A stretch of DNA of 64,000 bases from Atopobium sp. oral taxon 416. GTDB taxonomy: Bacteria > Actinomycetota > Coriobacteriia > Coriobacteriales > Atopobiaceae. Every line of letters begins with the position of its first letter. Position 1 is the first letter of the stretch. Shown one piece after another: positions 12,345 to 43,698 of this stretch. The DNA lies in assembly GCF_018128285.1 (NCBI RefSeq), contig NZ_CP072380.1, positions 868,001-932,000 of the forward strand. Direction: 5' to 3'. The notes beneath the pieces were generated by a model. The model saw nothing but the letters and a program-made list of their open reading frames with translations, was not told the DNA's origin and did not search any database. A program made the position numbers and the translations under genes.

Positions 12345-12360
12345 AACAATGATAAAAGAA

Positions 12361-12394: not shown

Positions 12395-12398
12395 ACTT

Positions 12399-17973: not shown

Positions 17974-18002
17974 ACATATAGTTTGTTATACAAACTATAT
18001 GT
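17974..18002. promoter_or_regulatory. 29-bp palindromic operator, copy A
   Basis: The core is a perfect dyad, CATATAGTTTGT and ACAAACTATATG, around TAT. Its pattern (ACA..-AGT-GT-N3-AC-ACT-TGT) recurs before dpaL copy 2 (30529) and ygeY (43626). Flanks for roughly 100 bases also resemble those of the 30529 site (GTCTGCGGA..AAG upstream, GTACTGACAG..GGGAA downstream), so this is a paralogous promoter. A GCGATGGCCAC...GTGGCTATCGC hairpin and an SD plus ATG follow at 18032-18081, but the gene they would serve has been replaced by an IS110 remnant. Confidence 0.7.
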
Positions 18003-18061
18003 ACGGTACTGACAGTTGGGAAATAAGAAAGCGATGGCCACAGGCAGGTGGCTATCGCACA

Positions 18062-19551
18062 AGAAGGAGACCAGCTATATGAAGTCAAGTAAAAAACCAT
18101 GATCTTTTGGAGAGATGTCTAACGATTGTTTTTGTAAGTGTTGGATTAGTTGCACTTTGACAGTCGAATATCGAATGCTTTTAGGCGCAATAGATGAAGC
18201 AGCTGTGAAACATAGGCACAGCAGCAAACAAAAGTATGCAGTTTTTGATTGATACAAAACAGTTCGGGTTGTAGGCCACCTTGTCTCGCATCACGGCAAA
18301 GATGATGAGACAGAGCTTTCTTGCCACGGCAGCTACAGCCACCCTATAGGGTTTGTCTCAATAATCGCTTCTTTCTACAGAACTCTTTGAGCTTAGGAAT
18401 ATAGCTGCTGCAGCAAGCCACAGAGCGCGTCTCAGATAGGAAGACCCTGCTTTGGTGATAGGCAACCCTTTAGCCTCAAGCTTGCCGGATCGATTCGCTC
18501 TGTGGTTCAGCCCGGCGTAGTTTACGATCTGAGAGCTGCTCTTAGGCCGAGACACATCACCTGTCTTTGTAGCTGTGTGAACCCTACCTGTGACAAGACT
18601 CCAAGGATAGTGATGATGAGGGGCTCCACCTTACATAGCAGCTCTTCTATCATTGCTTTGTCGGTGTCTTTGATGTTGCCTTCCAAATATTCGATCTCAA
18701 AGATACAGTGCTTGATCTTAAAACCCACAGCCTTCTTCCCAAGGTGCGCCCCACAGGAGTTTTTGGCGGCCTCTTTGTTATTGCTTTAGCCTCACCAAGG
18801 CGCCCCGTTCTTTGTGGGCAGTGAGTCATCTGTGAGAAGCGCCAAGGAAGGGACGCTGAAGATGTTAGTGAAAAGCGGCTCGCACTTCGGGAAATGAGAA
18901 CCTAAAAGGCAGATAGCCTGTACCTCTTTTAGGGACTGACAAAAACGCATTAAGAATCGCAGAGCCTGTAGAGTATCATCTGCAAGCTTCGTTGGCTTTA
19001 CCTCACCTACACGGCAGGGTCTTTGCGATGAGAGAGCTGTCGGCTGTATCATTTTTGACCCTGCGAAGCCCTTGAGTTTGCGTAGAGCCTCTACATGCAC
19101 AGGATCAAGGACACACACTGCCTATCCCTTTTCCACAAGATATGAGTGGCAGGCCATCCAATTCTGGTTCTGCCAGACTTTCTAGCCCACGAGGAGCACC
19201 TATCCAAACCTTCGCTGGTACTTCTGAAAGAGATTAGGCACCTATCTTTCCCTTTGTTGTCGATGGTTCCGATTAGGTGGTCTACCTTTGCGATATCCAC
19301 ACCTGCAAAGAGCATAGGTGTATCTCCTTACAAAGCCAGTCTGGCAGACTCCCCGCTATAGCCATTTAGATCTGCACGCTTCTAAAAGAGATGCGAAGCC
19401 CAAGCCAAAAGCTTGCCTTCGCCCAGCTTATCTGCGATCTACTCCAGATGGGACAGGATACCAATCTCCTTTACGAGCCGCATAGCTCTTCAGGCAGTAT
19501 GAAGACATTCCTGCCACCGGAGATTCTCTATTGCATCTAAAAGCATCCGAT
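18062..19551 (-). mobile_element. IS110-family element, degraded (copy 1)
   Basis: Minus-strand fragments spell an IS110-type transposase. The N-terminus at 19315 gives MLFAGVDIAKVDHLIG with the first Asp of the RuvC-like DEDD site. The middle (about 18792-19118) and the C-terminal Transposase_20 part (NYAGLNHRANRSGKL...SSYLRRAL, ending 18358) lie in different frames, so it is a pseudogene. Subterminal matches CGAATGCTTTTAGGCGCAAT (about 18168) and ATTGCATCTAAAAGCATCCG (about 19533) are inverted and may mark the ends. The copy at 22577-23540 shares the left-end sequence in opposite orientation. The 240 bases upstream of the transposase start are where an IS110 guide (bridge) RNA would be expected. 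Confidence 0.75.
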
Positions 19552-19554
19552 ATG

Positions 19555-19588
19555 AGGCCAATAAATGCAACGCAGTGAATATAGGAGG
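19555..19588 (+). repeat. 34-bp leader repeat, copy 2 (before dpaL copy 1)
   Basis: Nearly identical to 12361-12394, this leader abuts the IS110 remnant and supplies the SD (GGAGG) for dpaL copy 1. dpaL copy 2 lacks it and instead has the palindromic-operator promoter, so the two identical genes have different 5' regions. Confidence 0.55.
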
Positions 19589-19593
19589 GGCGT

Positions 19594-20820
19594 GTGGATC
19601 CAAAGTTCAAGTGGGTTTTAAACCGCATGCCAGAGGATGAGGATAAGAATCTGCAAATCATGAGCCTGGAAAATGTCGCAAAGGCTCGCGCTTTCCACAA
19701 GAGCTTCCCGCAGTACAGCGTCACGCCATTGGCTGACCTGAAGGGAATGGCTGAGCACCTTGGCCTGGGTGGCCTCTACGTAAAGGACGAAAGCTACCGT
19801 TTTGGTCTCAACGCCTTTAAGGTTCTCGGTGGCTCGTTTGCAATTGCGCGCTACATCGCTGAGCAGACCGGCCGCGATGTTTCCGGCTGCGACTTTAACT
19901 ACCTCACGTCTGAGCAACTCGAGAAGGATTTCGGTCATGCAACCTTCTTCACTGCCACCGATGGTAACCACGGCCGCGGCGTCGCTTGGGCGGCAAAGCG
20001 CCTGCACCAGAAGGCAGTTGTTCATATGCCGAGGGGTTCCACGAAGACCCGCTACGACAACATCGCTAAAGAGGGTGCGCAGGTCACCATCGAGGATCTC
20101 AACTACGACGATTGCGTGCGTCTAGCCGCCAAAGAGGCTGAGAACACCGAGCACGGCGTAATCGTTCAGGACACCGCTTGGGACGGTTATACCAAGATCC
20201 CGTCCTGGATCATGCAGGGCTATGGCACCATGGCATCTGAGGCTGCAGATCAGCTCCGTCAGCTCGAGATCAACCGTCCGACTCACGTCTTCGTACAGGC
20301 CGGTGTCGGATCCCTCGCTTCCTCCATGGTCGGCTTCTTCGCCAACTTGTTCCCCTCCAATCCTCCCAAGTTCATCATTATGGAAGCAGGCGCTGCTGCA
20401 TGCCTGTACAAGAGTGCAAAAGCTGCTGACGGTGAACCCCGCATCGTTACCGGTGACCTTCAGACCATCATGGCCGGCCTTGCCTGCGGCGAGCCGAACA
20501 CGATCGGTTGGGATATCCTGAGAAACCACGCGGACGCTTTCATTAGCTGCCCGGATTGGGTGAGCGCACGCGGTATGCGTATGCTTGCAGCTCCAGTCAA
20601 GGGAGACCCGGCAGTCACCTCTGGTGAGTCTGGTGCTGTTGGTATGGGCGTCGTGTCTTCCCTGATGACAGATCCAGCCTATAAGGATCTCCGTGACGCG
20701 TTGGAGATCGGTTCTGACTCACAGGTCCTGCTCTTCTCAACTGAGGGTGACACCGATCCGGTTCGTTACCGTGAGATCGTCTGGGATGGTGCTTGGGAGT
20801 CCATCAAGGACGCAAAGTAG
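19594..20820 (+). CDS. dpaL: 2,3-Diaminopropionate ammonia-lyase, copy 1
   Basis: A 408-residue cytosolic PLP enzyme (YgeX/DpaL) converting 2,3-diaminopropionate to pyruvate and two ammonia. The PLP lysine is K76 in SYRFGLNAFKVLGGSFA; TDGNHGRGVAW, the glycine-rich phosphate-binding VQAGVGSLASSMVG and GESGAVGMG follow. The start is GTG behind GGAGGGG, giving MDPKFKWVLN. The protein is identical to copy 2 at 30631. In urate-fermenting gut bacteria this enzyme performs the last nitrogen-releasing step. Here it is preceded by the 34-bp leader and an IS110 remnant rather than its likely native promoter. Confidence 0.93.
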   Translation: MDPKFKWVLNRMPEDEDKNLQIMSLENVAKARAFHKSFPQYSVTPLADLKGMAEHLGLGGLYVKDESYRFGLNAFKVLGGSFAIARYIAEQTGRDVSGCDFNYLTSEQLEKDFGHATFFTATDGNHGRGVAWAAKRLHQKAVVHMPRGSTKTRYDNIAKEGAQVTIEDLNYDDCVRLAAKEAENTEHGVIVQDTAWDGYTKIPSWIMQGYGTMASEAADQLRQLEINRPTHVFVQAGVGSLASSMVGFFANLFPSNPPKFIIMEAGAAACLYKSAKAADGEPRIVTGDLQTIMAGLACGEPNTIGWDILRNHADAFISCPDWVSARGMRMLAAPVKGDPAVTSGESGAVGMGVVSSLMTDPAYKDLRDALEIGSDSQVLLFSTEGDTDPVRYREIVWDGAWESIKDAK

Positions 20821-20856
20821 GCCCAATACCCGCATCCTTTGAGATGGAGTAAAAGC

Positions 20857-20896
20857 AAATCCTCTGCTTCGGTGTGTCCGAGACAGAGGATTTTTT
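20857..20896 (+). terminator. Terminator of dpaL copy 1
   Basis: AAATCCTCTG (20857-20866) pairs with CAGAGGATTT (20884-20893), followed by more T residues. It may work in both directions, serving the minus-strand hydrolase remnant too. Confidence 0.88.
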
Positions 20897-20920
20897 CGTT
20901 AGTTTGATAGCGTCGTTTGA

Positions 20921-21223
20921 TCATTGCTGTATCGGTACCGGACAGATCTTATTTACGAAGTCCAGCATGTCGCCGAAGACCTTCTGGAACTCCTTTTCGC
21001 GGAGGATCTCATGGTGCAGTCCGAGATAAAGGATGCCGAAGACACCGGTGTAACCGCGCTCCCTGAGGAAGTCCTGTGAGTGGTGCCAGGAATCAACGCC
21101 GAGGGTGATGGGATCCTCTTTGCCGGCGAGCAAAAGAATCGGGAGGTCCTTATTCTGCATCGCCCATCCCCCTTTGGTATAAGCCCGCTTCATAAGCAGC
21201 AGATTCTTATAATCATTGAGCAT
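20921..21223 (-). pseudogene. 3' fragment of an alpha/beta hydrolase
   Basis: The last 100 residues of a serine-hydrolase fold protein (monoacylglycerol lipase/aminopeptidase S33 type). The acid LLLAGKEDPITLG and the histidine in LGLHHEILREKE of the catalytic triad are present, but the nucleophile-elbow half is missing because the IS3 remnant begins right upstream. The second dpaL repeat contains only the last third (to 32058). It cannot be functional. Confidence 0.65.
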
Positions 21224-21237
21224 AAAGGGGTGGTGCT

Positions 21238-22570
21238 AGCATATAAATAGGACGTCTTAAATATGACCTTTTCATACAGCATAATATATAAGAGATGGAG
21301 GAAAGAGTCATGGCAAAGGGTAAAAGGTATTCTCAACAGTTCAAAAATGATGCTGTCCAGTACAGAAAGGATCATCCAGAGATGACGCTCATCGATACGG
21401 CTAATCATCTGGGTGTTAAGCAAATCAGCCCTCAAACACTGGAGTGCATCCGCAAAGCAAAATGATGGAGACGTCATTTCCTGTGGATCCGGTAATTATT
21501 CAAGTGATGAGGCAAAAGAGATTGTCCGGCTACGCCGGCAGCTGCGGGATACGAAGGATGCCCTTGAAATCCTAAAAAAGCAATCACTATCCTGGGAAAA
21601 TGACCGTTACTGTTTATTCTGAGACTCAAAGATATACCGATGAGATCAGACAGAACAATCCGAAACGCCATGTTTTGGTCAGCGGGATACTGTATTATCT
21701 CGGCGTTTCCAAATCTGGTTACTATGCCTGGAGGAGCCATACTCCCTCCAGGACAGAAGATACACAGAAATAATAAAATGAAAGGCAAAATTCAGGAAAT
21801 TTATCAGCAGTCACATCAGATTTATGGCGCTCCGAAAATAGCGGCAGTTCTTCATAAGGGGGGGATCCAATTAGCGAACGGACTACAGGAAAATATATGC
21901 GAAAGATGGGGATTTGCGCCCTGTGGGTGCGTCATTGGACGCATACAACAACAGATTCAGACTTTGATCTGAGACTGCAAAATATCCTGGATGAGCAGTT
22001 TAGCCCGGATATGCAAAATGCTGTATGGGTATCGGATATCACATATATTTGGACTGAAAAGGGCTTTGTTTACCTCACCAGCGTCATGGATCTGTTCTCC
22101 CGTAAGATTTTGGCATGGGTGTTGAGCCGCACACTGGAGGCAAAAAATGTCGTAGAAACAGTACAGAAGGCTGTCGGAGAACGTAATGGAGTGAAACCAA
22201 AGGTATTCCATAATGATCGTGAATGCCAGTATGTATCAGATGAATTCCTTGAGGCAACCAGGGAAATGACAAACAGTTATTCAAAGAAAGGCTATCTGTG
22301 GGATAACGCATGCATCGAGTCTTTTCATTCACTCATCAAGAGAGAATGGCTGAACAGATTCAAAATCGAGAATTATGACCAGGCATATCGCTATGTATTC
22401 GAATATATCAATACGTTTTATAATACGGTTCGGATTCACAGCCATTGTAAATATCAATCTCCAGATGAATATGAAGCAGCATATTCGAAGCGATTGTCTG
22501 AGCTCAAGCAGGGACTGGCAGGAGAGGGTGAAAAAAAGTTATGTTTAACCTGCCCGAAAACTTGACATAG
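21238..22570 (+). mobile_element. IS3-family element, frameshifted
   Basis: OrfA begins at 21310 (MAKGKRYSQQFKNDAVQYRK) and is interrupted at 21465; its coiled-coil part continues in another frame (EAKEIVRLRRQLRDTKDALE). OrfB begins around 21600 and changes frame near 21900. The longest piece (21897-22565, 222 residues) carries the rve integrase core: VWVSDITYIWTEKGFVYLTS, FHNDRECQYVS, and NACIESFHSLIKRE with the last Glu of the DDE triad. The element separates the hydrolase fragment from an IS110 fragment. Exact ends were not resolved. Confidence 0.75.
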
Positions 22571-22576
22571 GACCAA

Positions 22577-23540
22577 ATCCTTAAAGACTCTCACGAGATA
22601 CCAGCAGTCGCTCAAAGAACAGGTGTTCGCCATAAAGACTCATGTCATATGTCTCATGGGACACCTACTTTCCCGAATACGACGCTATCTTTTCCAACAT
22701 GTTCGGGAAAGCATCGCTAACAGTACTTTCAAAGTGCCCACTGCCAGAAGACATCGCACATCTGTGTCAGTCGACACTAGAGAAGGTTATCGTAGAGGCA
22801 TCCCACGGCAGATCCGCTAGCAATCAGGCTAGCGAGATCAAGCAAAAAGCCAAGACATCTATAGGCTTTTGCCTTGGCTCAGCAGCGGCATCCTTTGAGA
22901 TCAAGTCCTGCATATCGCAGATAGAGTTCCTGCTCGCCCGCGCTTGTGAGGCAGATGACAAAATAGCCAAGCTGTTAGATTCAATCGAACCTTCAATCCT
23001 CACAGTGCCAGGGATTTCTCACACAACAGAAGCTCAGATTGTCGCCGAGATAGGCGATGTCTCTCGATTTAAAAACGTTGCTGCTATCGTAAGCTATGCT
23101 AACATCAACCCCTCTATCAACCAATCCGCTAAGTTTGAGCTTAAAGGAGGTTCTATCACAAAGAGAGGATCGCCGTATTTGAGACGTGCTCTTTGCTTTG
23201 CTGCCCAAGGGGCCTGCAGGCTCGACCCTGGGCTTCGTGCTTTCTACGATAAAAAAACGAAGCGAAGGCAAGCGCCACAGAGTTGCTGCCATGGCTGTCG
23301 CAAGAAAGCTCTGCCATATCATCTATACAATTCTTCAGGACCAGGTTCCATTTGAATCACAGGGCTAGATAACGTAGGTATTCCCATATCCGGGATTCCA
23401 ATAGCCTTAAGCTCATTGCGCCTAAAAGCATTCAATATTCAGCTGTCAAAGTGCAAAATCCAATACAACTTACTTACCTAAAACTTCTTCTACAATCTTT
23501 TAATCAGGTCTTGACTTCATATAACTGGTCTCCTTACAGC
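22577..23540 (+). mobile_element. IS110-family element, 5'-truncated (copy 2)
   Basis: It begins mid-transposase (LTRYQQSLKEQVFAIKTHV) and runs through a 237-residue open stretch with the C-terminal Transposase_20 domain (LDSIEPSILTVPGISHTTEAQIV, VSYANINPSINQSAKF, GSPYLRRAL). The N-terminal catalytic half is lost at the IS3 boundary. The distal end (about 23400-23540) matches, inverted, the left end of copy 1, including a shared GGAGACCAG-TATATGAAGTCAAG block. Confidence 0.72.
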
Positions 23541-24126
23541 CGATGACCTCGCACTATCCCTTTTGGTTGACGCCTATGGCCACACCCTCGCAGGTGCCTG
23601 CCTAGTTTCTCTTCACGTATGTGCCGTCCAGCTAGACGTAGGGGGTACTTGCCCGTGAGGGGACGGCACCGAAGGCCTTGCGGTTGAGCTTGGAGACGGT
23701 GGCGGGCGAGACGCTTAAGCCCCAGAAGATCTCTGAGACCTCCTGTATCCTTTTGGTGGAGACGCCCGCCAGCTACATCTCCATCAGCGCCTGCTCGAGG
23801 AAGCTCTCCTGCCTGTGGTAGCGCTCGATCACCTTCGACGCGAAGGTCGCACCCCCTAAAGCTTCTAGATGCTTAAGCGTCACGTCCCTTAAGGTCGTGG
23901 TGAGGTTTTGCCTGTAGTGGCCGAAGCAGCAGGCCTGCCGCTCGTAGCGGCCTGCGTTGACGATCTGGTTTGCCTGCGCGTCCAGCAGCGCGTTCAGTGA
24001 GTCCTGAACGGTTTTTCTGACGAGCTCCCCGAGGTAGTCCTGAAGCTTCGGCTCGTCGAATGATACTGTCTCGTGTGGCATGGTTTTCACTTCCTTTGGT
24101 CCGTTGGTTTGCTTGGTCGCTTCCAA
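23525..24126 (-). pseudogene. IS256-family transposase fragment 1
   Basis: A 117-residue N-terminal piece (FDEPKLQDYLGELVRKTVQDSLNALLDAQANQIVNAGRYER...GHYRQNLTTTLRDVTLKHLEALGG) typical of mutator-type transposases. Reading on past a stop near 23773 recovers STKRIQEVSEIFWGLSVSPATVSKLN and LDGTYV, the start of the catalytic region, with further stops. It then ends at the IS110 fragment. Confidence 0.7.
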
Positions 24127-24542
24127 TCGTAGCGAGACGGGGCCATATTTCTCTATGCGGCTATCCGGTTTTCAAAAGTGCGAAAGAAACTGTACGTCAT
24201 CTCGCTTGGGGTCTTCAAGCACACAGCGAGCGTGGCGAAGAAGGCCGTGCACGGCGAGCTTAGCCTCGTCAATGCGATGCAGCGAAGGCTGCGCGAGTTC
24301 CTGCTTTTCTTCCATGGGGTCTTCTACGAAGTGGCTGGGGCACTTGTCTTGCCTGCTTTCTGTGGATAGAGCAGGTAAGGCATTCTGAGCGGGAGAAGAA
24401 GGATATGCTCTCAGGCAAGCTTGCAGGAGGCAGATATGTCCATACCAGGCGTGCGCTCATAGACATAGAGCAGCCCTTCTGGAGCTATTGGAAGGACAGG
24501 GGCGCCAGGTCAATCATGGTCTAACAGCGAGAGAAGAATATT
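24127..24542. other. Unassigned stretch between IS remnants
   Basis: No complete gene is visible. A 63-residue frame (24178-24369) and a following piece ending SYWKDRGARSIMV look like decayed coding DNA, perhaps transposase-derived, but I recognise no family. Confidence 0.3.
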
Positions 24543-25667
24543 CTGACAGTCAAGTAAATGAGGGCCGGTTCAGGCTGTCCTGACAGCCCAGGTGATACAA
24601 TTCCACACGCCAAATGGAGAATGTGCCCTGGAGCCCACCCGGCTCTGTGTTTGGCGACGGTTTTGCCAGGTGGCCTCCAGGGCGAAGCGGAATCGTCAGG
24701 ATCATGGTACGGGAGAATCCCTTTTGTACCCGCATCGCAGAGGCCGAAGAGCAGAAGATCCACCGGAGGCCATAGCCGGTCGCCGCTGCCGTAAGCAGAC
24801 GGGCTTTGACACCTTCGCCGAGGCCGCATTCCTGCTGCCCGCCATGCGAGTCCGCGCGCACGAAGCGCGACGGCCTCGCGCCGAGTGGCGCACAGAGATT
24901 GAGAGTGCCCCGCATGCGGGAGCAAGTATAGCTCGCTTACAGGGACCGTCTTCGAGCATGCCCGCTGCAGGCTGGGTATCGCCCATCCGGCTCATGCGCT
25001 ACAGCATGCCCCTGGACTGCATCGCTAAATCCCTCCAGATATCTCACCAGAGCGTCTGGGAGTGGGGGTACCGGGTGTTTACCACCGTGGGACGGCTATC
25101 AGGACAGGATCGTCCTTAAGAAGCGCGTCTGGATCGGTAAGACCTACATAGTGGATACGGACCTTCCGCACGGATACGGGCAGGCGAGGAAGCGGGGGCT
25201 CTCCTCGCAGCAGCTCTGCATAGCGGTTGGGATAGACATCTTCAAGAACCCATACGCCGTGGTCTGCGGACACGGCAAGCCGTCCACGAGAAGGATCAGG
25301 GACGCATTCGGCGGCCACATAGCCAAAGGCGCGCTCGTCGTGCACGAGCGGGAGTGCGCCCACAGCGGGGTCATACGCGATGCCGGAGCAGTCTCCAAAT
25401 CATACCCGAGACCCGGAATACCTTGAGAGCATGGAGCTCGTGAACAACCTCTGCTCCTGGCTTAAGAGATACCTCTGGCGCTTCACGGGCATGTCCCATG
25501 TCCGACATGCAAAAGCTACCTCAACTGGTACGTCTATCGGTTCGGTGTCAACCAGGCAAGGGACAGGTGACCCGAGACTGCAAGGGTGGTCCGCCATATG
25601 ATGATGTCCGATGCAAGTCTCCGCAGCTCGACGTAGGTCTGGTGGCCTTCATTTACTTGATTGTTAG
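24543..25667 (+). mobile_element. IS1595-family element, decayed (copy 1)
   Basis: Terminal inverted repeats are visible: GACAGTCAAGTAAATGAGGG at the left and CCTTCATTTACTTGATTGTT at the right, about 24 bases with a few mismatches. Between them are fragments in several frames of an ISXO2-like transposase (LMRYSMPLDCIAKSLQISHQSVWEW; VWIGKTYIVDTDL where family members have WIDETY; YGQARKRGLSSQQLCIAVGIDIFK; GKPSTRRIRDAFGGHIAKGALVVH). Frameshifts make it inactive. Confidence 0.72.
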
Positions 25668-25991
25668 ATCTTGATTCAATGATTCAGTGCGTCGAGGAGT
25701 ATGGGCTATATATCCCTTGCGCCTGGATTTGCCGTCCCGCACAGTTCTTCTGAGAACGGAAGATAAAGATGGGCATGTTCTTTATCCGTTTGAAACATCC
25801 TATTCTATTTGGCTGAGAGGAAAATGATCCAATTCGATTTGTCATTACCCTGAGTGATGTGGCTGCCGGTTTTGAGACACGGATTTGACCATCCTTCCGA
25901 ATCCCGCAAAGATGTGTTCAGAGTACATAATAATAAGAAAAAGGCTTCACGCGTAAGCGTGATTTGGTTAAAATAAATGACGGAGGATGTT
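25668..25991. other. Intergenic stretch before the AT-rich ABC exporter
   Basis: No gene is apparent. A CACGC-GTAA-GCGTG hairpin lies at about 25947-25960, 30 bases before the SD of the ABC ATPase, and could be a leader hairpin or old terminator. The AT-rich TACATAATAATAAG before it is the best candidate promoter area. Confidence 0.35.
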
Positions 25992-26669: not shown

Positions 26670-26670
26670 C

Positions 26671-27336: not shown

Positions 27337-27344
27337 CTAATTGA

Positions 27345-30328: not shown

Positions 30329-30528
30329 AAAGAGATGCGGCGCGCCCGTGACGGAACCCGAAAATATTTCGTGATGAGACCCGAAAGGAGAATCTGCCTA
30401 GGACCCAAACTCAGGCTTGACTAAACACAACTCAACGTCTGCGGATAAGCCGTGTCCTTTCAGCAAAACAAGGTGGTATGGGGCTTGCAAAGTAAGCCAT
30501 TCGTGGTGTAATAGTAGCCGTCTACCAA

Positions 30529-30557
30529 ACAAAAAGTTAGTTGAACAGACTATGTGT
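30529..30557. promoter_or_regulatory. 29-bp palindromic operator, copy B (before dpaL copy 2)
   Basis: Imperfect dyad ACA-AAAAGTTAGT-TGA-ACAGACT-TGT ending 73 bases before the dpaL start. Bases 30524-30540 (ACCAAACAAAAAGTTAG) are identical to 43621-43637 before ygeY. The symmetric positions ACA/TGT, AGT/ACT and GT/AC are kept in all three copies. This is probably the native dpaL promoter-operator. Confidence 0.7.
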
Positions 30558-30630
30558 GCGATACTAACTGATGGGAATTTTGGAAGTAGCGGCGATCGAC
30601 AGACGGCTGTCAGAGATGAAGGAGGGGCGT

Positions 30631-31857
30631 GTGGATCCAAAGTTCAAGTGGGTTTTAAACCGCATGCCAGAGGATGAGGATAAGAATCTGCAAATCATGA
30701 GCCTGGAAAATGTCGCAAAGGCTCGCGCTTTCCACAAGAGCTTCCCGCAGTACAGCGTCACGCCATTGGCTGACCTGAAGGGAATGGCTGAGCACCTTGG
30801 CCTGGGTGGCCTCTACGTAAAGGACGAAAGCTACCGTTTTGGTCTCAACGCCTTTAAGGTTCTCGGTGGCTCGTTTGCAATTGCGCGCTACATCGCTGAG
30901 CAGACCGGCCGCGATGTTTCCGGCTGCGACTTTAACTACCTCACGTCTGAGCAACTCGAGAAGGATTTCGGTCATGCAACCTTCTTCACTGCCACCGATG
31001 GTAACCACGGCCGCGGCGTCGCTTGGGCGGCAAAGCGCCTGCACCAGAAGGCAGTTGTTCATATGCCGAGGGGTTCCACGAAGACCCGCTACGACAACAT
31101 CGCTAAAGAGGGTGCGCAGGTCACCATCGAGGATCTCAACTACGACGATTGCGTGCGTCTAGCCGCCAAAGAGGCTGAGAACACCGAGCACGGCGTAATC
31201 GTTCAGGACACCGCTTGGGACGGTTATACCAAGATCCCGTCCTGGATCATGCAGGGCTATGGCACCATGGCATCTGAGGCTGCAGATCAGCTCCGTCAGC
31301 TCGAGATCAACCGTCCGACTCACGTCTTCGTACAGGCCGGTGTCGGATCCCTCGCTTCCTCCATGGTCGGCTTCTTCGCCAACTTGTTCCCCTCCAATCC
31401 TCCCAAGTTCATCATTATGGAAGCAGGCGCTGCTGCATGCCTGTACAAGAGTGCAAAAGCTGCTGACGGTGAACCCCGCATCGTTACCGGTGACCTTCAG
31501 ACCATCATGGCCGGCCTTGCCTGCGGCGAGCCGAACACGATCGGTTGGGATATCCTGAGAAACCACGCGGACGCTTTCATTAGCTGCCCGGATTGGGTGA
31601 GCGCACGCGGTATGCGTATGCTTGCAGCTCCAGTCAAGGGAGACCCGGCAGTCACCTCTGGTGAGTCTGGTGCTGTTGGTATGGGCGTCGTGTCTTCCCT
31701 GATGACAGATCCAGCCTATAAGGATCTCCGTGACGCGTTGGAGATCGGTTCTGACTCACAGGTCCTGCTCTTCTCAACTGAGGGTGACACCGATCCGGTT
31801 CGTTACCGTGAGATCGTCTGGGACGGTGCTTGGGAGTCCATCAAGGACGCAAAGTAG
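30631..31857 (+). CDS. dpaL: 2,3-Diaminopropionate ammonia-lyase, copy 2
   Basis: Identical in protein sequence to the gene at 19594 (408 residues, PLP lysine K76). The GTG start with GGAGGGG is retained. An in-frame ATG at 30571 would add 20 residues, but these overlap the promoter-proximal leader and are absent from copy 1, so it was rejected. This copy has the palindromic operator at 30529-30557 and an upstream region homologous to 17890-18010, so it is the one more likely to be regulated with ygeY. Confidence 0.93.
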   Translation: MDPKFKWVLNRMPEDEDKNLQIMSLENVAKARAFHKSFPQYSVTPLADLKGMAEHLGLGGLYVKDESYRFGLNAFKVLGGSFAIARYIAEQTGRDVSGCDFNYLTSEQLEKDFGHATFFTATDGNHGRGVAWAAKRLHQKAVVHMPRGSTKTRYDNIAKEGAQVTIEDLNYDDCVRLAAKEAENTEHGVIVQDTAWDGYTKIPSWIMQGYGTMASEAADQLRQLEINRPTHVFVQAGVGSLASSMVGFFANLFPSNPPKFIIMEAGAAACLYKSAKAADGEPRIVTGDLQTIMAGLACGEPNTIGWDILRNHADAFISCPDWVSARGMRMLAAPVKGDPAVTSGESGAVGMGVVSSLMTDPAYKDLRDALEIGSDSQVLLFSTEGDTDPVRYREIVWDGAWESIKDAK

Positions 31858-31893
31858 GCCCAATACCCGCATCCTTTGAGATGGAGTAAAAGC

Positions 31894-31933
31894 AAATCCT
31901 CTGCTTCGGTGTGTCCGAGACAGAGGATTTTTT
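31894..31933 (+). terminator. Terminator of dpaL copy 2
   Basis: Same AAATCCTCTG / CAGAGGATTT hairpin and T-run as after copy 1. Confidence 0.88.
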
Positions 31934-31957
31934 CGTTAGTTTGATAGCGTCGTTTGA

Positions 31958-32058
31958 TCATTGCTGTATCGGTACCGGACAGATCTTGTTTACGAAGTCC
32001 AGCATGTCGCCGAAGACCTTCTGGAACTCCTTTTCGCGGAGGATCTCATGGTGCAGTC
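31958..32058 (-). pseudogene. Short 3' remnant of the alpha/beta hydrolase
   Basis: Only the last 30 or so residues (LHHEILREKEFQKVFGDMLDFVNKICPVP) remain, carried along by the dpaL duplication. Confidence 0.6.
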
Positions 32059-32088
32059 TGAGCACTGTAACCTCAAATTTTACATAAC

Positions 32089-33716: not shown

Positions 33717-33769
33717 CTCATCTCTTCAATCTGCTGGTGTTGGTAGGTGGGTATCTGGACAGAGCATAT

Positions 33770-35145: not shown

Positions 35146-35184
35146 TAGCAACTATCCAACGCTATTCGAAGCGGGTGAGTCAGG

Positions 35185-35523: not shown

Positions 35524-35569
35524 GTGGAGTAGTAATAGCTAAGAACAATAGAAAAGGGGAGGGTTGAGC

Positions 35570-36385: not shown

Positions 36386-36414
36386 GGTCTGTAAAAAGGC
36401 CTTGCAAAATGGTC

Positions 36415-36499
36415 GAGCACTCCTGAGAGCTTTAGTGGGAACAGGCCCGGCAGTCAACCCAAAAAAGCTTTGAATAATTCAAATTTCTCAGAAGTGCTC
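36415..36499. promoter_or_regulatory. Long-range inverted repeat in the aldolase-gatC gap
   Basis: GAGCACTCCTGAGA (36415-36428) pairs with TCTCAGAAGTGCTC (36486-36499), 13 of 14 bases, around a 57-base loop. It lies between the aldolase stop and the IIC start and could stabilise or process the mRNA or act as an operator. Confidence 0.4.
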
Positions 36500-36540
36500 C
36501 CTTCCAGTCTAATACGAAGACTTAGATAGAAAGGCACGCA

Positions 36541-37935
36541 ATGGACGTTCTCTACAACGTAGTCCAATATATTTTGGGCTTTGGAGCAGCTGTTTTTGTC
36601 CCGCTGATTATGCTAATTATCGGCATGATTTGCAAGATGAAGTTTAGCGATGCATTTCTGGCGGCACTGACGCTGGGCATTGGCTTCACAGGCATGAATG
36701 TTTTGATTAACTTCATGACCGGTGCCATTACCCCTGCAGCACAGGGACTCGCAACGGCAACGGGCATCAGCTTGCCGGCCGTCGATGTGGGATGGCCCGC
36801 ACTTTCCGCTATCGCATGGGCGTGGCCGTATGGAACGCTTTGCTTCCCGCTGTTGATCGTCATCAACATCATTATGCTGAAGGCAAAGCTCACGAACGTG
36901 CTCAACGTTGACCTTTGGAACTGCTGGACCAAACTCTGCACCTGCGTTATCACGTACTATCTCTGCGTTTCTGTTGGCTTCCCCGACGGCACCGCTGTCA
37001 TCCTGGGCTTCGTTGCTGCTTCGATTCAGATCGTCCTCGAACTCAAGATTGGCGATGCGATTCAGCCGACCATCCAGAAGGTCACTGGTATTCCTGGCGT
37101 CACTGTTCCGCATGCTCTGATGCTGTCCTGCGCCATGATTCTGCCCTTTGAGAAGCTCCTGGAGAAGGTTCCTGCCATCGAGAACAACCACGTTGACGCA
37201 AAGTGGCTACGCGACAAGATTGGCATCTTTGGCGAGAACTGCGTCATGGGCTTCATCATCGGCACGGTGCTGGGTGCCGTCGCTTATCGCGACCCCCAGA
37301 AGGCACTGACGTTGGGCATCCAGGCCGGTACTGCAATGCAGCTGTTCCCGACCGTTTCAAAGCTGTTCATGCAAGCTCTGGCTCCTATTTCTGATGCTGT
37401 TGGCTCCTTCATGAAGCAGCGTTTCCAGGGCCGTGAGCTTATCATCGGCCTTGACTGGCCTATCGTTGCCGGTTCGGACGAGCTCTGGGTCTCTATGATT
37501 CTTCTGATTCCGTTTGAGTTGATTTGGGCGTTTATCCTTGCTCCTGTGGGCAATGTGGTCCTGCCCTTCGCTGGTATCGTCAACATCTGCCTTGGCCCCT
37601 GCCTGCTTATGCTTTCTGGTGGCAACCTCATCAAGATGCTCATCGAGGGCATCATCGTGACCCCCGTGTATCTGCTAGCCTCCAGCTCTTTCGCGCCGTA
37701 TCTGACGGAGCTTGCCCGCACCTATTCTCCGGATTCTCTCGCTGGCGTTGGGAACAACGCCATGATTACCTGGTCCACGCTTGAGACTCCCGACTTCAGG
37801 TGGTCCATCGCTAACGCGCTGTCTGGTCATCCGTCCGGAATCGTTGCCCTCATCGTTTGGCTTGCGCTGTTCGTCTGGATGCTCAAGGAGTTCAAGAAGC
37901 GCAACGCAGAGCTGAAGGCAGAGCAGCAGGCATAG
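36541..37935 (+). CDS. gatC: PTS system IIC component, galactitol type
   Basis: A 464-residue integral membrane permease of the GatC family with roughly ten hydrophobic segments. Recognisable parts are FVPLIMLIIGMICKMKFSDAFLAALTLGIGFTGMNVLINF and GLDWPIVAGSDELW. AAAGGCACGCA precedes the ATG. It forms the sugar channel used with the IIB at 34861. Because the adjoining IIA gene is broken, transport would need a IIA encoded elsewhere. A hairpin after the gene (37981-38022) may terminate. Confidence 0.85.
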   Translation: MDVLYNVVQYILGFGAAVFVPLIMLIIGMICKMKFSDAFLAALTLGIGFTGMNVLINFMTGAITPAAQGLATATGISLPAVDVGWPALSAIAWAWPYGTLCFPLLIVINIIMLKAKLTNVLNVDLWNCWTKLCTCVITYYLCVSVGFPDGTAVILGFVAASIQIVLELKIGDAIQPTIQKVTGIPGVTVPHALMLSCAMILPFEKLLEKVPAIENNHVDAKWLRDKIGIFGENCVMGFIIGTVLGAVAYRDPQKALTLGIQAGTAMQLFPTVSKLFMQALAPISDAVGSFMKQRFQGRELIIGLDWPIVAGSDELWVSMILLIPFELIWAFILAPVGNVVLPFAGIVNICLGPCLLMLSGGNLIKMLIEGIIVTPVYLLASSSFAPYLTELARTYSPDSLAGVGNNAMITWSTLETPDFRWSIANALSGHPSGIVALIVWLALFVWMLKEFKKRNAELKAEQQA

Positions 37936-37980
37936 GCTTCTAATTCCAAAGGCCTGGATGCAGCTACTGATGCAATAGTT

Positions 37981-38022
37981 CGCCGCTCCTCGAGGAAAGT
38001 AATCGAGGGGTGGCGCTTCTAT
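37981..38022 (+). terminator. Hairpin after gatC
   Basis: CGCCGCTCCTCGA pairs with TCGAGGGGTGGCG (two mismatches), followed by CTTCTATTCCTT. A weak intrinsic terminator that would cut off the broken IIA gene. Confidence 0.5.
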
Positions 38023-38070
38023 TCCTTGTAACGATAATTCGCTGCAATTATCGATACCTTACGACGACAA

Positions 38071-38554
38071 TTGGAGACTATATTGCTTGGGAAAGAAACA
38101 ATAAAGCGCGACCTCACTAGGATTGACGTGTCCGCTTCGAACTGCAACGAGCTCTTTGAGAAGATGAACCAAGTCTTTCTCAGGGGTGGACGTGAACAAG
38201 AAGTATCTGCGTACTATCGAAGAGCGCGAGAGCAAGTATCCTACGGCACTTCCTGTAGAGCCTGATCCCATAGCCATTCCTCGCACCGAGGCAGATGCCA
38301 TCATCATGCCTTTCTTTGCACCTGTGCGGCTGGCAACTGTCATTCCCTGGGGTGACATGTCTGACCCAGCCAATACATTACAGATAAAGCTGGTATTCAT
38401 ATTGGGTTTCAATGAGCCTGGTGTTCACGTTGAGCTTCTGTAGATTCTGGTGCATAACTTCAGCAGATCGGACTGGTTCAACACTCTACATTCGGCAAAG
38501 ACTGAGGATGCGTTCTATCAGGCTGTCATGGATATGGACTGGAACCACGATTAG
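38071..38554 (+). pseudogene. Broken PTS IIA component with active-site His replaced
   Basis: The reading frame changes near 38190 and a TAG at 38441 interrupts the remainder, which continues in frame to 38554. The middle piece reads ERESKYPTALPVEPDPIAIP-R-TEADA, whereas GatA/Fru-type IIA domains have IPH at the phosphorylated histidine; codon CGC at 38282-38284 encodes Arg. With frameshift, stop and lost His it cannot act as a phosphocarrier. It keeps the position expected for the IIA of the operon. Confidence 0.75.
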
Positions 38555-38623
38555 CCGATGGCTTTACGCTGATACAAATGCTTCCACTTGAGAGACCTGC
38601 CTTAGCTGGAAGGTGGTTATTCG

Positions 38624-38940
38624 ATGCTTTACAATGATCCTAAGTCGTTTCGGGAAGATATGCTGAGCGGCTATGTTGCCCAAGTCCCAGGCGGTTGTCG
38701 TTCGTGCCTCTGAAATGCCAGAGAATAAAGTCGTTGTAATCAACAGAGGAGGCTCTGGGCATTACCCTGCGTTTTATGGCTACATTGGCGATGGGCTTAT
38801 GGATGCCACTGTAGTTGGCAATGTGCTCACGTCTCCGTCGTCGGAAGATGCTCTCAGCGTTGCAAGTTCCGTAAATCAGGGAACAGGGATACTCATCATC
38901 GGAGGAAATTACGCCAGCGACAAGAAGAACTTCGATATTG
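38624..38940 (+). pseudogene. DhaK-like kinase gene, truncated by an IS5-type element
   Basis: Starts MLYNDPKSFREDMLSGYVA behind GGAAGGTGG, shifts frame near 38680, then reads VVVINRGGSGHYPAFYGYIGDGLMD, SPSSEDALSVASSVNQG and GGNYASDKKNFDIA, the N-terminal part of dihydroxyacetone-kinase DhaK domains. The IS5-type element enters at 38941-38944 and no DhaK continuation is found beyond it at 40290. Confidence 0.72.
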
Positions 38941-38944
38941 CTAG

Positions 38945-40285
38945 GGAAACGATGATTAATGCCCCATAACGTGTCAGAGGGGACCGACCACACGGCCTTT
39001 CTAGGCCGGTATGCGGGAAAGGCAGGGAAGGATGCTCATCCAGCACGTGCAGGAGCCGCCATCCTTACATCTGTCCTGCCCCATGCACCGCAAGAAGGCT
39101 CCAAGACGGATCAAGCGACGCTGAGAGCCGGGAAGTGCAGCCTGCCGGCAAAAGATGCACATGGGTAAGGTTTGCAAGGGCGAGGCAGACTCGAGCATAC
39201 AGGAGGTCTTCTCTATCCTTCTGTAGCGCTTCCTTAAGGGGTCGAAGCGCCGCTTCACGATAAGGAAGGGATGCTCTACCTTTAAGCGGCCGGATGCCTT
39301 CCTGGACTCGATGCCTTTTTCGGAGAAGAGTGCACAGTTAAGGCCCTCTCTAGTCGAAGGTTTCCTTGCGACACTCCAGCGCATAGATGAGAGGTGTGGG
39401 TCTTTATGCGTCCTTAAGGGCGCTTCGCTATACCTATATAGCCTAAAGTCTGCGCAGCAGAACCTGTCATCTTCCCTTACGAGTGCATGTGCCTGGGATA
39501 TGTCAGATACATTCTAAGCGGTCGTCTCCACGGCATGCACAAGGCCGCTACCGGCGTCTACGCCGATATGCGCCTTGTATCCGATACGCCAGTTCTTCCC
39601 TTTCTTGGACTGGTGCGCTTTAAGGGTCGCGCGCATGGTCCTTGTTCTTCGTGGAGCTTTAGGGCCCAGGTGAAGGTCGCATCCACCATGGAGCCGCCCC
39701 GTGCCGTGATCCCTGCCTTCTTAAGTTCTGAATTCAGGTCGTGAAGCATAGCTTTGCCGAACTCCTCTCGCTTTAAGGCTATGGCGCATCTTCGCAAGTG
39801 TCGTAGCATCTGGCACCTGCTCAGACATGAGGTCCAAGTGCATGAAGCGCTGCCAGGAGTGGCAATCCAGGATAGCATCTTTAAGTTCCCTCGTCTTAAG
39901 AGAGCAAACATGACCTAAAGCAGGCTACATCCTAAAGCTTTGTCTCCGCACCGCGCACATGCCTGCCACGCGCCTGTCAGTGGTAGCTGGTATCTACCAG
40001 TGCAATCCAGCTATCCCACACAACGATTGCATCCATCCGCTCCAGGAATGCCTCCCGCCGGGTCTTCTTCCTTAGACCTTAGGATTTAAGGTCCTAAAAG
40101 CTCATCTGGCTGTCCATATCTGTCTTTTGGATATGTAGGAATACGTGGATGTAGCTATACCATATCCAGAAGACAGATAGGCATCTATGTGGGTATGGGC
40201 ACTGCGTGGTTCGAGACATTTTAAGCCGATGTCATACAGCGTGTGGCCCCAGCTACCTCATCGAGGCGAATTAATCATCGTTTCC
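38945..40285 (-). mobile_element. IS5-type element, copy 1 (decayed)
   Basis: Ends are GGAAACGATGATTAAT and its complement, flanked by CTAG on both sides (38941-38944, 40286-40289), a 4-base target duplication typical of IS5-group elements. Minus-strand fragments spell a transposase: [33 protein letters not shown], then [11 protein letters not shown]-like and GYKAHIGVD-like pieces in other frames. The copy at 51777 is the same element in the opposite orientation. Confidence 0.85.
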
Positions 40286-40289
40286 CTAG

Positions 40290-40990
40290 AGGCACTCGTA
40301 GTGGAGCTTGTGCAGGACAATGCACCTTCCCTGCTAAAGATATAGGGCTGCGGCCCGCTGCCCTCGGTATCACTGTGCTGCGCGCAGCGGCACCAATCGA
40401 GCGGCAAGCCTGTCAGATACCGACTCAACCGACAGGCTTTCCGGGCGCTGTATACCATCGCGCTCAGCTGCATGCGCTACGACAAACGGATGCTGACCTA
40501 CATCTTCAAAAGGACAGCCGAAGGCACATCGAAGCGCGAGATCACAAGATGTTTGAAGAGATACATAGCTAGACAGGTCTTCCGTGCTCTTTTGAATCCA
40601 GGTACCAAAAAGCACGAGTGCGAAAAGAGCCTTAAAGTCGAAGCGGCTGTCGGCACACCTCACCCACAGGGATGCCGCTTTAAGGCTTTAACACCGAGCC
40701 CGTCAGGATCAGCGAGATCGAGCGCGAAGCGAGGAAGCACTGCGAGCTTTAGGACAGATACTCGATGCTCCTATCCGAAATATGCAAGAGCCGTGAGATG
40801 ACTCTTGATACACCATAGGGGCGTCCTTAGGGGGCACTACCGCATGTCTCATATGCAGGACGTGTCCGCAGCGGCATTTGCCGAATATCCCTCATTTATC
40901 GGTTCAGGAAAGCCTTGTGGGCGCCTGTTCCGCGATAGCATTGCCACTTGATAAGGGTTTGGGGTCATATGAAAAACGCCGAAGAGCCGA
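40290..40990 (+). pseudogene. IS110-family C-terminal remnant and unassigned decayed DNA
   Basis: Between about 40425 and 40600 one frame reads RQAFRALYTIALSCMRYDKRMLTY, then KRTAEGTSKREITRCLKRYIARQVFRALL, the C-terminal signature of another IS110 subgroup. The rest to 40990 contains short, stop-broken frames (SEIEREARKHCEL) that I cannot assign. Confidence 0.55.
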
Positions 40991-40993
40991 AAA

Positions 40994-41025
40994 AGAGCCA
41001 GGGATCAGATCTCTGGCTCTGTTAG
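40994..41025 (-). terminator. Terminator of the AmmeMemoRadiSam genes
   Basis: On the minus strand AGAGCCAG (41020-41013) pairs with CTGGCTCT (41001-40994), followed by TTTTTC. Confidence 0.85.
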
Positions 41026-41047
41026 AATCAGCGTGAGCTGATCAACC

Positions 41048-41905
41048 TCAGATATTGCCGAGCTCGACGTGGTCAAGATATTTGCGTGCGACCTCTGCCA
41101 GTGAGTAGAGCGTCTGCTTGGGTGTAGGAGGACGATCTTGCATCCTCCACTGCGGGAAGAAGCGGGTGATGTGCAGGGTGATAGGGTCTCCCTTGACGGG
41201 GAGCGCTGCGATCCACTGCGCAATGTCTTCCATATCCGCTGTTGTGTCGTTCATGCCCGGAATAATGAGTGTGGTGAGTTCCAGATGGCAGGTAGGTGTG
41301 GCGGCCAGAATCTTGATCGTCTGCTCTACGGTTTGGATATCGCCAGCGCACTGTTTGTAGAAGTCCTGGTTGGAGCCCTTAAAATCGATGTTGGCGGCAT
41401 CGATCACAGGAGCGATTTCCCATATGACTGCTTCTGTCGCATAGCCGTTTGAGACAAGGATATTGTCGAGGTTGTGCTGATGTGCGAGCTTACTGCAGTC
41501 GCGCACATATTCCCAGCCGATCAGGGGTTCGTTGTAGGTGTAGGCGATACCGATGGTGTTGGTATAGACCTTCTGCTCGTTGAGCGTGATCTGTACCAGT
41601 TGCTCAGGGGAAACGGTCTTCCAGGGGACCTGATGCTCGTTGGCTTGGGAGATCTCCCAGTTCTGGCAGAAGGGGCAGCGCAGGTTGCATCCGTAGCTGC
41701 CCACGCTCACGACATAGCTCCCCGGCTTGTAGTTCGCTAGGGGCTTCTTCTCGATGGGGTCTAAGGCCAGTGAGGTGAGGCGACCGTAGTTCTGGTCGAT
41801 AACCTTGTCACCTCTACGGATACGTGCCCGGCAGAAGCCGACCTGTCCCTCAGCGAGCTTGCAGGCATGGGGACAGACCGGACAGGTGATCTTCGTGTCA
41901 CTCAA
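41048..41905 (-). CDS. amrS: AmmeMemoRadiSam system radical SAM enzyme
   Basis: A 285-residue radical SAM protein of the AmrS/pyruvate-formate-lyase-activase-like group. The SAM cluster motif is in GSYGCNLRCPFCQNWEIS (CxxxCxxC); extra cysteines in CPVCPHACKLAEGQVGFCRAR at the N-terminus are typical of this family. TYNEPLIGWEY and DFKGSNQDFYKQ are conserved. It overlaps the AmrBA fusion gene by four bases (ATGA). The three-domain system is widespread but its reaction is unknown; Memo, AMMECR1 and radical SAM domains together suggest modification of some target molecule. Confidence 0.88.
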   Translation of the reverse strand: MSDTKITCPVCPHACKLAEGQVGFCRARIRRGDKVIDQNYGRLTSLALDPIEKKPLANYKPGSYVVSVGSYGCNLRCPFCQNWEISQANEHQVPWKTVSPEQLVQITLNEQKVYTNTIGIAYTYNEPLIGWEYVRDCSKLAHQHNLDNILVSNGYATEAVIWEIAPVIDAANIDFKGSNQDFYKQCAGDIQTVEQTIKILAATPTCHLELTTLIIPGMNDTTADMEDIAQWIAALPVKGDPITLHITRFFPQWRMQDRPPTPKQTLYSLAEVARKYLDHVELGNI

Positions 41906-43299
41906 TGGTGCCTCACCACTTCAAAACGCTCGAGGTATATATCGGGATCGTGCGGATTGATGTTGCCCTTTCTGGCAGCGATTGAGATCTGCTGTTCGGC
42001 GGTGTCAACGCCATCGAGGTCAGGCAGCAACAGTCCGCGTCTGCCGTCAGGGGTAGAGACAATGACGCCGTATTTCTTTGGATCGAGCTCCTGGGCACTT
42101 TCGATGCGCTCCGGGGTCTGCAAGACATCGACGCTGTAGACGAGCTCAGGCAGCTCTTCGGGTCTCACGCTCGGGAAGCGGGGATCGCGGGTGCCGGCAG
42201 AGACGGCATTGGAGCAGATTTCTTCGGCGAGGTTGTCCCGGGTCGGCGCGATGGTGCCGATGCAGCCCCTGAGCTCTCCATCCTCCTTAAGGGAGACAAA
42301 GCAGCCTGCCCTTGTCTGAGTGAGTTCAGAGGGAAGGTCTGCGGGAAGCCGGACACCTCGGTGCGTAGTTACGTATGTCTCCAGTGCCTTACGAGCCAGA
42401 GCAACGAGTGGGTCCTCCCTCGCTTTGAAGCCTTCGAGCTTCTGTTCGTGAAACCGCTCGTAGGTCTTGAGGAACTGGCGGGATTCATCCGGCCCCTTCC
42501 CAGTGGGGATGAAAGAGGCGACGCCGTAGCCCACGCCGAACGGCCCCTCATGGGACATCAGTGTGGCTTTGACCGGGATGCCGTCCAAGGCGCCTGCCAT
42601 GATTTGGAAGCTCCGGAGGCCACACTCTGCGGCGCGATCTGCGAAGCTCCGATCCATCGTCAGCAGGTCGAGGAAGTTACCGGTAGAGAAGATCTCTTCG
42701 ATCTTCTTGTCGAACTCAGGCCCTTCCGGGGCATAGCCATAGGGTCCGGAGCTCTTCAGCTTGTGGGAGAGGTCGCCGGAGGCCACATAGACGGTGCGTC
42801 GTCCTAGTTGATTGGATACCGCTTGTACCGCCATGCCCAGCTTGTAGTGCTCGGCCGGGGAAAGACCGGAGAGTCCGATGCGGACCGCCTTGAAATCGGT
42901 ATAGTACTTCTGAATGAAGTACAGCGGGATCATCGTCGCATGGTCGAGCGCCGGTTCCCGCTCATAGGCTGTACCCGCAGAGAGCTGATGCTTGTGTGCG
43001 TAGGCGTTGAGGGCTGTGGTGAACTCTTCGTCGTAGTTGACCCAGAAGGAGGCTTCAGGCGCCCCAAACTGGGAGAAGGACCCGTGGGCATCCTTGCCGG
43101 GGGAGATGTGGTTGTAGTCGCGATACATCGTCGTGTGCGGAGAGGAGATCACGATCGTCTCAGGTTTCAGCTCCGCAATCTGCTTGCCTACCTTGTTGTA
43201 GGCTTTAACGGTTTCGGAAATCCCCTTCTCCTCACCACGACCGACCGCCGGGATGATCAGGGGTGGATGGGGGACTGCAAATGCTGCAATGATACTCAT
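41902..43299 (-). CDS. AmrB-AmrA fusion (Memo-like plus AMMECR1 domains)
   Basis: A 465-residue fusion. Residues 1 to about 265 form the Memo/LigB extradiol-dioxygenase-like domain (FAVPHPPLIIPAVGRGEEK, SSPHTTMY, YVASGDLSHKL, SHEGPFGVGYGVASF). Residues about 285-465 form AMMECR1 (TRAGCFVSLKEDGELRGCIGT, AVSAGTRDPRFPSV). In many genomes the two domains are separate proteins. The ATG behind GAAGGTG was chosen over one 45 bases upstream. It is coupled to the radical SAM gene and divergent from ygeY across a 400-base gap containing the palindromic operator, so both may be affected by it. Confidence 0.85.
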   Translation of the reverse strand: MSIIAAFAVPHPPLIIPAVGRGEEKGISETVKAYNKVGKQIAELKPETIVISSPHTTMYRDYNHISPGKDAHGSFSQFGAPEASFWVNYDEEFTTALNAYAHKHQLSAGTAYEREPALDHATMIPLYFIQKYYTDFKAVRIGLSGLSPAEHYKLGMAVQAVSNQLGRRTVYVASGDLSHKLKSSGPYGYAPEGPEFDKKIEEIFSTGNFLDLLTMDRSFADRAAECGLRSFQIMAGALDGIPVKATLMSHEGPFGVGYGVASFIPTGKGPDESRQFLKTYERFHEQKLEGFKAREDPLVALARKALETYVTTHRGVRLPADLPSELTQTRAGCFVSLKEDGELRGCIGTIAPTRDNLAEEICSNAVSAGTRDPRFPSVRPEELPELVYSVDVLQTPERIESAQELDPKKYGVIVSTPDGRRGLLLPDLDGVDTAEQQISIAARKGNINPHDPDIYLERFEVVRHH

Positions 43300-43698
43300 A
43301 TATGATGCACCTTCTTTTTCCAGATTGCTCACACACGGGATCACTTACAGTCTATATACCCATGTCTTCTTCCTGGGGCAAAACTGGGTGAACGTGCAGT
43401 AGGAGGTATCGTGTGGGATAGATGCCAAACAAATTTTTAGGTATAGATGACAAGCTGTATGGATCAAAGCATCTGCAGAGGTGAATACGTGGACAAGCTA
43501 TGCAGAGATAGGCAGCAACAAGTCACCGTTTATCTGCATATTTATACCGCTGACGACAAATCTAACAATCCTTTAGAATTCCTCTTGATTCCTCAGGGAT
43601 AGCTGCTTTAATAAAGATTGACCAAACAAAAAGTTAGGTTAACGTACAAATTGTCTAGTGTGTTTTAGCATAAAAGATTTCATGCAAGGAGGAACTAA
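43300..43698. promoter_or_regulatory. Divergent amrBA/ygeY promoter region with operator copy C
   Basis: The 29-bp operator is at 43626-43654: ACA..AGTTAG, centre GTTAAC, ..TGT. It ends 44 bases before the ygeY ATG and is preceded by ACCAAACAAAAAGTTAG, identical to the site before dpaL copy 2. A position overlapping or adjoining the ygeY promoter suggests repression, or activation close to RNA polymerase. The SD (AAGGAGG) is at 43687-43693. No other gene is visible in this 399-base gap. Confidence 0.65.

Follow-up and report, generated by a model that had tools for sequence, protein, structure and literature searches.

A tandem-dyad array before dpaL and ygeY of Atopobium sp. oral taxon 416 as the putative operator of a YheO/DauR-like repressor of purine-degradation genes

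We analyzed three related palindromic sites in a 64,000-nt stretch of the genome of Atopobium sp. oral taxon 416 (contig NZ_CP072380.1, positions 868,001–932,000; genome size 3,004,013 bases), called the window below; positions are those of the window unless marked as genome positions. Two of the sites precede dpaL, encoding 2,3-diaminopropionate ammonia-lyase, and ygeY, and all three are very probably DNA operators of a YheO/DauR-like factor predicted to repress purine-degradation genes. An earlier reading, made from the sequence alone (the sequence-only reading), had taken the palindromes for the operator of a regulator of diaminopropionate and urate use encoded outside the window or not recognized in it. 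Our analysis supports this proposal, a candidate gene being located 480 bp beyond the left edge. The pathway is reported to end in 2,3-diaminopropionate, which is cleaved by YgeX (dpaL) (PMC12507026). The array probably controls urate breakdown; the comparisons presented here argue strongly for the HTH_22 protein as its binder and, with moderate confidence, for repression rather than activation.

The palindromes at 17974–18002 (site 1), 30529–30557 (site 2) and 43626–43654 (site 3) were verified by reading the window sequence, as were the perfect 12-bp arms around a 5-nt center at site 1. The 17-mer ACCAAACAAAAAGTTAG, starting at 30524 and 43621, is identical in sites 2 and 3. With the listed long repeats excluded, the plus strand has 11 repeated 17-mers including this one, and several of the 11 overlap each other. 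Of the symmetric triplets described earlier, only the AGT/ACT mirror at site 3 fails, where ACA stands instead of ACT. Site 2 ends 73 nt before dpaL copy 2 and site 3 ends 44 nt before ygeY, in agreement with the proposed distances. These 29 bp form the core of a larger array, which reads CAAAC-N5-GTTTG-N5-CARAC-N5-GT in the conserved columns of 38 non-redundant sites and has an outer CAAAC 3 nt upstream of each palindrome (starting at 17971, 30526 and 43623). The array thus consists of half-sites every 10 bp, i.e. of two tandem 15-bp dyads (CARAC-N5-GTYTG) with a 20-bp pitch. On the plus strand it occupies 17971–18002 at site 1 (with CAAAC as the third half-site), 30526–30557 at site 2, and 43623–43654 at site 3.

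The pattern derived from the three sites, allowing three mismatches, matched only these three places in the own genome (site 1, being near-symmetric, also on the minus strand), and the reversed pattern gave no match. A half-site array pattern with one mismatch identified sites 1 and 2 again and, in addition, genome positions 769569–769600. Scattering of the motif over the genome, named in the sequence-only reading as contrary evidence, was not seen in either of these pattern searches. Sites 1 and 2 cannot be counted as two independent cases, since they lie in homologous promoter regions (17883–18022 and 30437–30577) with 77% identity over 140 bp, or 71% over 169 bases in an ungapped comparison. 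Site 3 has no homology to the surroundings of sites 1 and 2 beyond the array.

Next, we considered conservation. The nearest named relatives by YgeY are Olsenella (class Coriobacteriia, family Atopobiaceae) and other Coriobacteriales, followed by Collinsella and then by Lachnospiraceae. Among 140 genomes from the family to which the window belongs (G-numbers label genomes and L-numbers loci), ygeY was found in 60 and dpaL in 65 genomes at E 1e-80. We cut out 86 regions upstream of dpaL or ygeY, 75 of them of sufficient length, and took one per gene and genome, which left 65. The matrix was applied to 300 nt with a score cut-off of 12; reversed or shuffled sequences served as controls. With each genus left out of the matrix in turn, 47 of the 65 upstream regions (12 of 15 genera) had a site, as compared to four of 260 controls, although this test is not fully independent, its training sites having been located with the all-genera matrix. 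A matrix built from the three window sites alone provides an independent test, but its controls match more often: in other genomes, 42 of 63 upstream regions against 20 of 252 controls scored at least 12, and 35 of 63 against 12 of 252 scored at least 15, with matches in 10 of the 14 genera other than the window's own. Conservation before dpaL and ygeY in relatives, the lack of which the sequence-only reading had named as contrary evidence, is thus present.

The genus-left-out test missed 18 upstream regions. Twelve belong to ygeY genes located about 79–147 nt behind a dpaL gene that carries the site; three belong to the dpaL genes of G016, G051 and G052, whose ygeY carries it; two belong to the ygeY genes of G008 and G063, where a single dyad is kept and dpaL is without a site; and one belongs to the dpaL gene of G007. 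Therefore, the motif mostly marks the start of a transcription unit. A DNA similarity search with the 204 bp around site 2 in the own genome and 39 relatives gave matches in the own genome only, showing that only the short array is conserved.

The candidate regulator, a protein of 230 aa, is encoded on the minus strand at genome positions 866828–867520, divergent from ssnA. It combines a YheO-like PAS domain (PAS_6, PF08348; residues 14–126, E 1.6e-34) with a C-terminal HTH_22 domain (PF13309; residues 154–215, E 1.8e-18), which is the only HTH_22 match in the genome. A predicted structure built from 13 homologs (mean predicted local distance difference test score, pLDDT, 80; predicted template-modeling score, pTM, 0.59), matches PAS/LOV folds and, at rank 47 of the structure matches, the VqmA–DNA complex, all with low TM-scores (0.26–0.44 by query length). 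Proteins with PAS_6 and HTH_22 are recurrent neighbors among 80 ygeY loci of named genomes. In loci of Collinsella, Enorma and Butyricicoccus, the operator lies between dpaL and the divergently oriented regulator gene. The regulator gene is also present in five Lachnospiraceae loci (L132, L134, L140, L142 and L144), which have a site before dpaL with scores of 17–26, whereas the scores before the regulator itself are lower, at −0.8 to 11.6.

The distribution of the array follows that of the HTH_22 domain. The array pattern was found in 59 of the 140 family genomes (122 matches, compared to eight for the reversed pattern) and HTH_22 above the cut-off in 69; both occur together in 58 genomes, that is, in all array genomes except one. 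At the genus level, 13 of 14 array genera have HTH_22, and five HTH_22 genera are without the array. Three genomes with dpaL and without HTH_22 (G095, G097 and G098) have no site in the 4.5–5.5 kb around dpaL. The matrix trained only on dpaL and ygeY upstream regions also recognizes the regions of 300 nt before the regulator: 51 of 79 loci scored at least 12, compared to three of 78 reversed ones. In the own genome, the gap between the regulator gene and ssnA contains two weaker arrays (genome positions 867581–867609 and 867840–867868), and three 15-bp dyads with one mismatch each, two of them at the 20-bp pitch.

Several observations, in addition to the above limits of the two matrix tests and the missed genes of G008 and G063, weigh against this reading. 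The half-site pattern had three matches in the own genome against one control match, and the arrays in the regulator/ssnA gap are weak (score 12.7 before the regulator and 18.0 at 157 nt before ssnA). Eleven of the 69 HTH_22 genomes have no pattern match, seven of which are without dpaL and some of which have weaker matrix sites; G059 has no site near dpaL or the regulator, and G060 has none in the 14 kb around the regulator. All genome counts refer to related genomes, which are not phylogenetically independent. Among the 79 regulator loci, several genomes are represented twice and four homologs are distant (23–31% identity); 25 of the upstream regions, six of them from g50 genomes, scored below 9. 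Random windows from the regulator loci scored at least 12 in 133 of 1580 cases, which is partly explained by windows that can overlap true sites. Finally, a sequence search found no solved structure of the regulator family.

The position of the array relative to the promoter is consistent with a repressor. A sigma-70-type promoter precedes each array, with a −35 box TTGCAA or TTGATT, a 16-nt spacer and a −10 box TGTAAT or TTTAAT. The predicted plus-strand promoters comprise TTGCAA (17930–17935) and TGTAAT (17952–17957) at site 1, TTGCAA (30485–30490) and TGTAAT (30507–30512) before dpaL copy 2, and TTGATT (43585–43590) and TTTAAT (43607–43612) before ygeY, the last with TGC in front of the −10 box. 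The gap between the −10 box and the array is 10 nt at site 3 and 13 nt at sites 1 and 2. With a transcript start 7 nt downstream of the −10 box, the array would extend from about +5 to +36 or from about +8 to +39, and would thus begin within about 10 nt of the predicted start. In the family alignment of 38 non-redundant sites, conserved promoter columns are found at a nearly fixed distance from the array: CTTGAA or CTTGCA about 40 nt before it, and a TTTAAT/TGTAAT-type box, often preceded by TG, about 18 nt before it.

With an array placed directly downstream of the promoter, a bound repressor could block the polymerase. Most likely, two dimers of the factor occupy the two tandem dyads on the same side of the helix and prevent dpaL, ygeY and further purine-degradation genes from being transcribed. 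The PAS domain would bind a metabolite of the pathway, and the factor would then be released from the operator. Since dpaL is among the best-marked targets, we guess that this effector might be the dpaL substrate, D-2,3-diaminopropionate.

Three other explanations of the array were weighed against a DNA operator of the YheO/DauR-like factor. The predicted transcript includes the array, some copies of which form short hairpins with perfect pairing, so that it could act as RNA in the 5’ leader, for example as an attenuator, an mRNA stabilizer or a protein-binding leader with the hairpin ACCAAAC-AAAAA-GUUUGGU or alternatives. However, the candidate pairs showed no covariation beyond shuffles in the 38 non-redundant sites, except for (18,32) and, weakly, (−2,11), both explicable by shared ancestry, and where the two A/T tracts face each other, A stands mostly opposite A. 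There was no Rfam match at the gathering score, and a single chance-level match was located elsewhere. Moreover, some promoters in relatives (L191, G071 and G073) have a further array copy 62–72 bp upstream, at or upstream of the −35 box, and the array is also found in intergenic regions that adjoin the divergently oriented regulator gene. A riboswitch or other structured RNA was rejected as a candidate; given the lack of convincing covariation and of an Rfam match, we read the array as a DNA operator, and a role as RNA appears very unlikely.

Binding of another protein to a real DNA operator is somewhat less improbable, although still unlikely. The binder could be one of three further regulators encoded in the window, IclR (11448–12452), a helix-turn-helix (HTH)–MobA protein (47455–48402) and XRE (54965–55606), or a protein not recognized here, and the arrays adjoining the HTH_22 gene are weak in the own genome. 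On the other hand, HTH_22 tracks the array far better than IclR_C, which was found in 18 of the 140 family genomes and, in a comparison by hand, in 12 of the 59 array genomes; IclR was rejected as the regulator by this distribution. HTH_22 genes, in turn, are often preceded by array-like sites, and in Collinsella loci they are oriented away from dpaL with the operator in between. The last explanation, in which local duplication produced the sites as a repeat carried along with dpaL or a mobile element and without a regulatory role, draws on the homology of sites 1 and 2 over 140–169 bp and the debris of mobile elements in the area. It is hardly tenable, as the homology of site 3 is limited to the array, the array is conserved across genera, and the 204 bp around site 2 were not found in the 39 relatives.

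The operator of the YheO/DauR-like factor would be shared by several genes. In the own genome, strong or weak arrays precede dpaL (twice), ygeY, the regulator gene, ssnA (26–1369, plus strand), which is the first gene of the ssnA-ygfK-xdh run, and an NCS2 permease gene. The array at genome positions 769569–769600, 98 kb to the left of the window, ends 63 or 83 nt, depending on the register, before the latter. The product passes the NCS2 cut-off (325.7 vs. 291.8 bits) and is near the xanthine-permease cut-off, but below it (399 vs. 414.15). Sites before NCS2 permease genes were also found in four relatives (G130, G108, G072 and G073), the nearest model being again xanthine permease, with scores below its cut-off. 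We assign the NCS2 permease gene to the predicted regulon, to which ssnA and the regulator gene itself probably belong as well. In G051, a site is located beside a YedE selenium transporter gene and a gene of the cysteine desulfurase family. Of the family places found with two mismatches, L275, L279, L281 and L282 have no matrix site and L272 has no recognized purine gene; these five probably represent chance matches. A related array was also observed before carA, encoding the small subunit of carbamoyl-phosphate synthase (L266:3040–3068, corresponding to G130:C7:259539–259567), with similar pattern matches in seven of eight g50 genomes (G130–G135 and G137); the loci of G130 and G133 were inspected, and carA of G133 was recognized by eye.

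The two dpaL copies of the window (copy 1 at 19594–20820; copy 2 at 30631–31857, NCBIfam TIGR03528, with a GTG start chosen after the Shine-Dalgarno sequence; both on the plus strand) encode identical proteins. Site 1 is separated from dpaL copy 1 by a mobile element with decayed IS110-like frames (18064–19588, minus strand). A query comprising 18075–19580 has two further matches in the own genome, with 98% and 95% identity, one of which served to define the boundaries of the element. The decayed frames resemble an IS110-type transposase at 22642–23355 (E 2e-18), the product of which was typed by Pfam; three open reading frames overlapping the element had no Pfam match. When the element is removed in silico, the flank of site 1 joins the dpaL start as in copy 2. 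Therefore, site 1 also belongs to a dpaL promoter, now separated from its gene, which presumably once drove dpaL copy 1. Over 1443 bp (19583–21025 vs. 30620–32062), the two copies have 99.8% identity, whereas their promoter regions are 71–77% identical. This suggests a recent gene conversion or replacement confined to the part to the right of the mobile element.

The 1.5-kb IS110-like element is present at window positions 18064–19588, as a remnant at 12361–12394, and at genome positions 1485224–1486736 and 2830645–2832186. The four observed right ends all have the sequence ATATAGGAG(G), closely followed by a start codon, which is likely GTG at the 12361 remnant, and the three left ends seen begin with AAGGAGACC. 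The element seems to insert into Shine-Dalgarno sequences, and with such right ends the downstream gene would keep a ribosome-binding site. The gene ygeY (43699–45084, plus strand) is followed by ygeW and genes for carbamate kinase, the HTH–MobA protein, a hydantoinase and a RidA-type protein. The HTH–MobA protein of this run is a fusion of a LysR-type HTH (HTH_1) and a MobA-like nucleotidyltransferase domain, and might serve either in regulation or as a molybdenum-cofactor enzyme. The window also contains an inverted repeat pair (38941–40290 and 51772–53123) of 1.35 kb with 91% identity.

In a wider and more tentative interpretation, which we regard as possible rather than probable, a single PAS_6–HTH_22 repressor with a two-dyad operator would govern the reductive urate/purine pathway (dpaL, ygeY, ssnA-ygfK-xdh, the nucleobase permease gene and perhaps selenium supply) in Coriobacteriia and Lachnospiraceae, sensing D-2,3-diaminopropionate. 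If true, this would be the first operator code for the YheO/DauR-like family and a switch of gut urate degradation. In any case, the analysis provides a candidate regulator, an operator, a promoter geometry and several target genes, and predicts a DNA code that YheO-like proteins would recognize. The combination of this family with this operator and this pathway was not found among the literature matches listed, which is a weak test.

Among the closest known systems is DauR of Pseudomonas aeruginosa, a repressor of the D-arginine operon with PAS_6 and HTH_22 domains, which senses D-arginine. DauR resembles the candidate in its architecture and in acting on the catabolism of cationic amino acids, but it serves another pathway; its operator was not among the literature matches listed. 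Enhancer-binding proteins that work with sigma-54 carry a sigma-54 activation domain and act on −24/−12 promoters, and a role in purine gene control has been proposed for YgeV of E. coli. DioR of Clostridioides difficile is described as a bacterial enhancer-binding protein whose proposed regulon includes pbuX (PMC11448449). The proposed control of purine genes is common to DioR, YgeV and the candidate; however, conserved −35/−10-type boxes are found here, and the candidate shows PAS_6 and HTH_22 alone at an E threshold of 0.001, and control of the sigma-54 type was rejected on these grounds.

Among proteins of the YheO-like family, E. coli YheO is an annotated DNA-binding regulator, named dauR in passages of PMC11026471. 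Unlike the candidate, it is in an operon with tusDCB and not with purine genes; the same passages give no operator, and the 8 kb around E. coli yheO contain no array (best score 1.9). The available text of PMC4519771, PMC10717218 and PMC11026471 likewise gives no DNA code for the family, and in that of PMC4519771 none of the terms footprint, inverted repeat, palindrome and binding site occurs. Cj1387c of Campylobacter jejuni, also YheO-like, is reported to affect flagella–flagella interactions, in which it differs from the candidate (PMC4519771). It has, however, the same architecture, and its loss raises the level of the adjacent L-PSP (RidA-type) protein Cj1388 (PMC4519771), a repressor-like effect on a neighboring RidA-type gene; a RidA-type gene is also present in the ygeY run described here. 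In general terms, repression by a one-component factor that binds a dyad operator is of a known kind.

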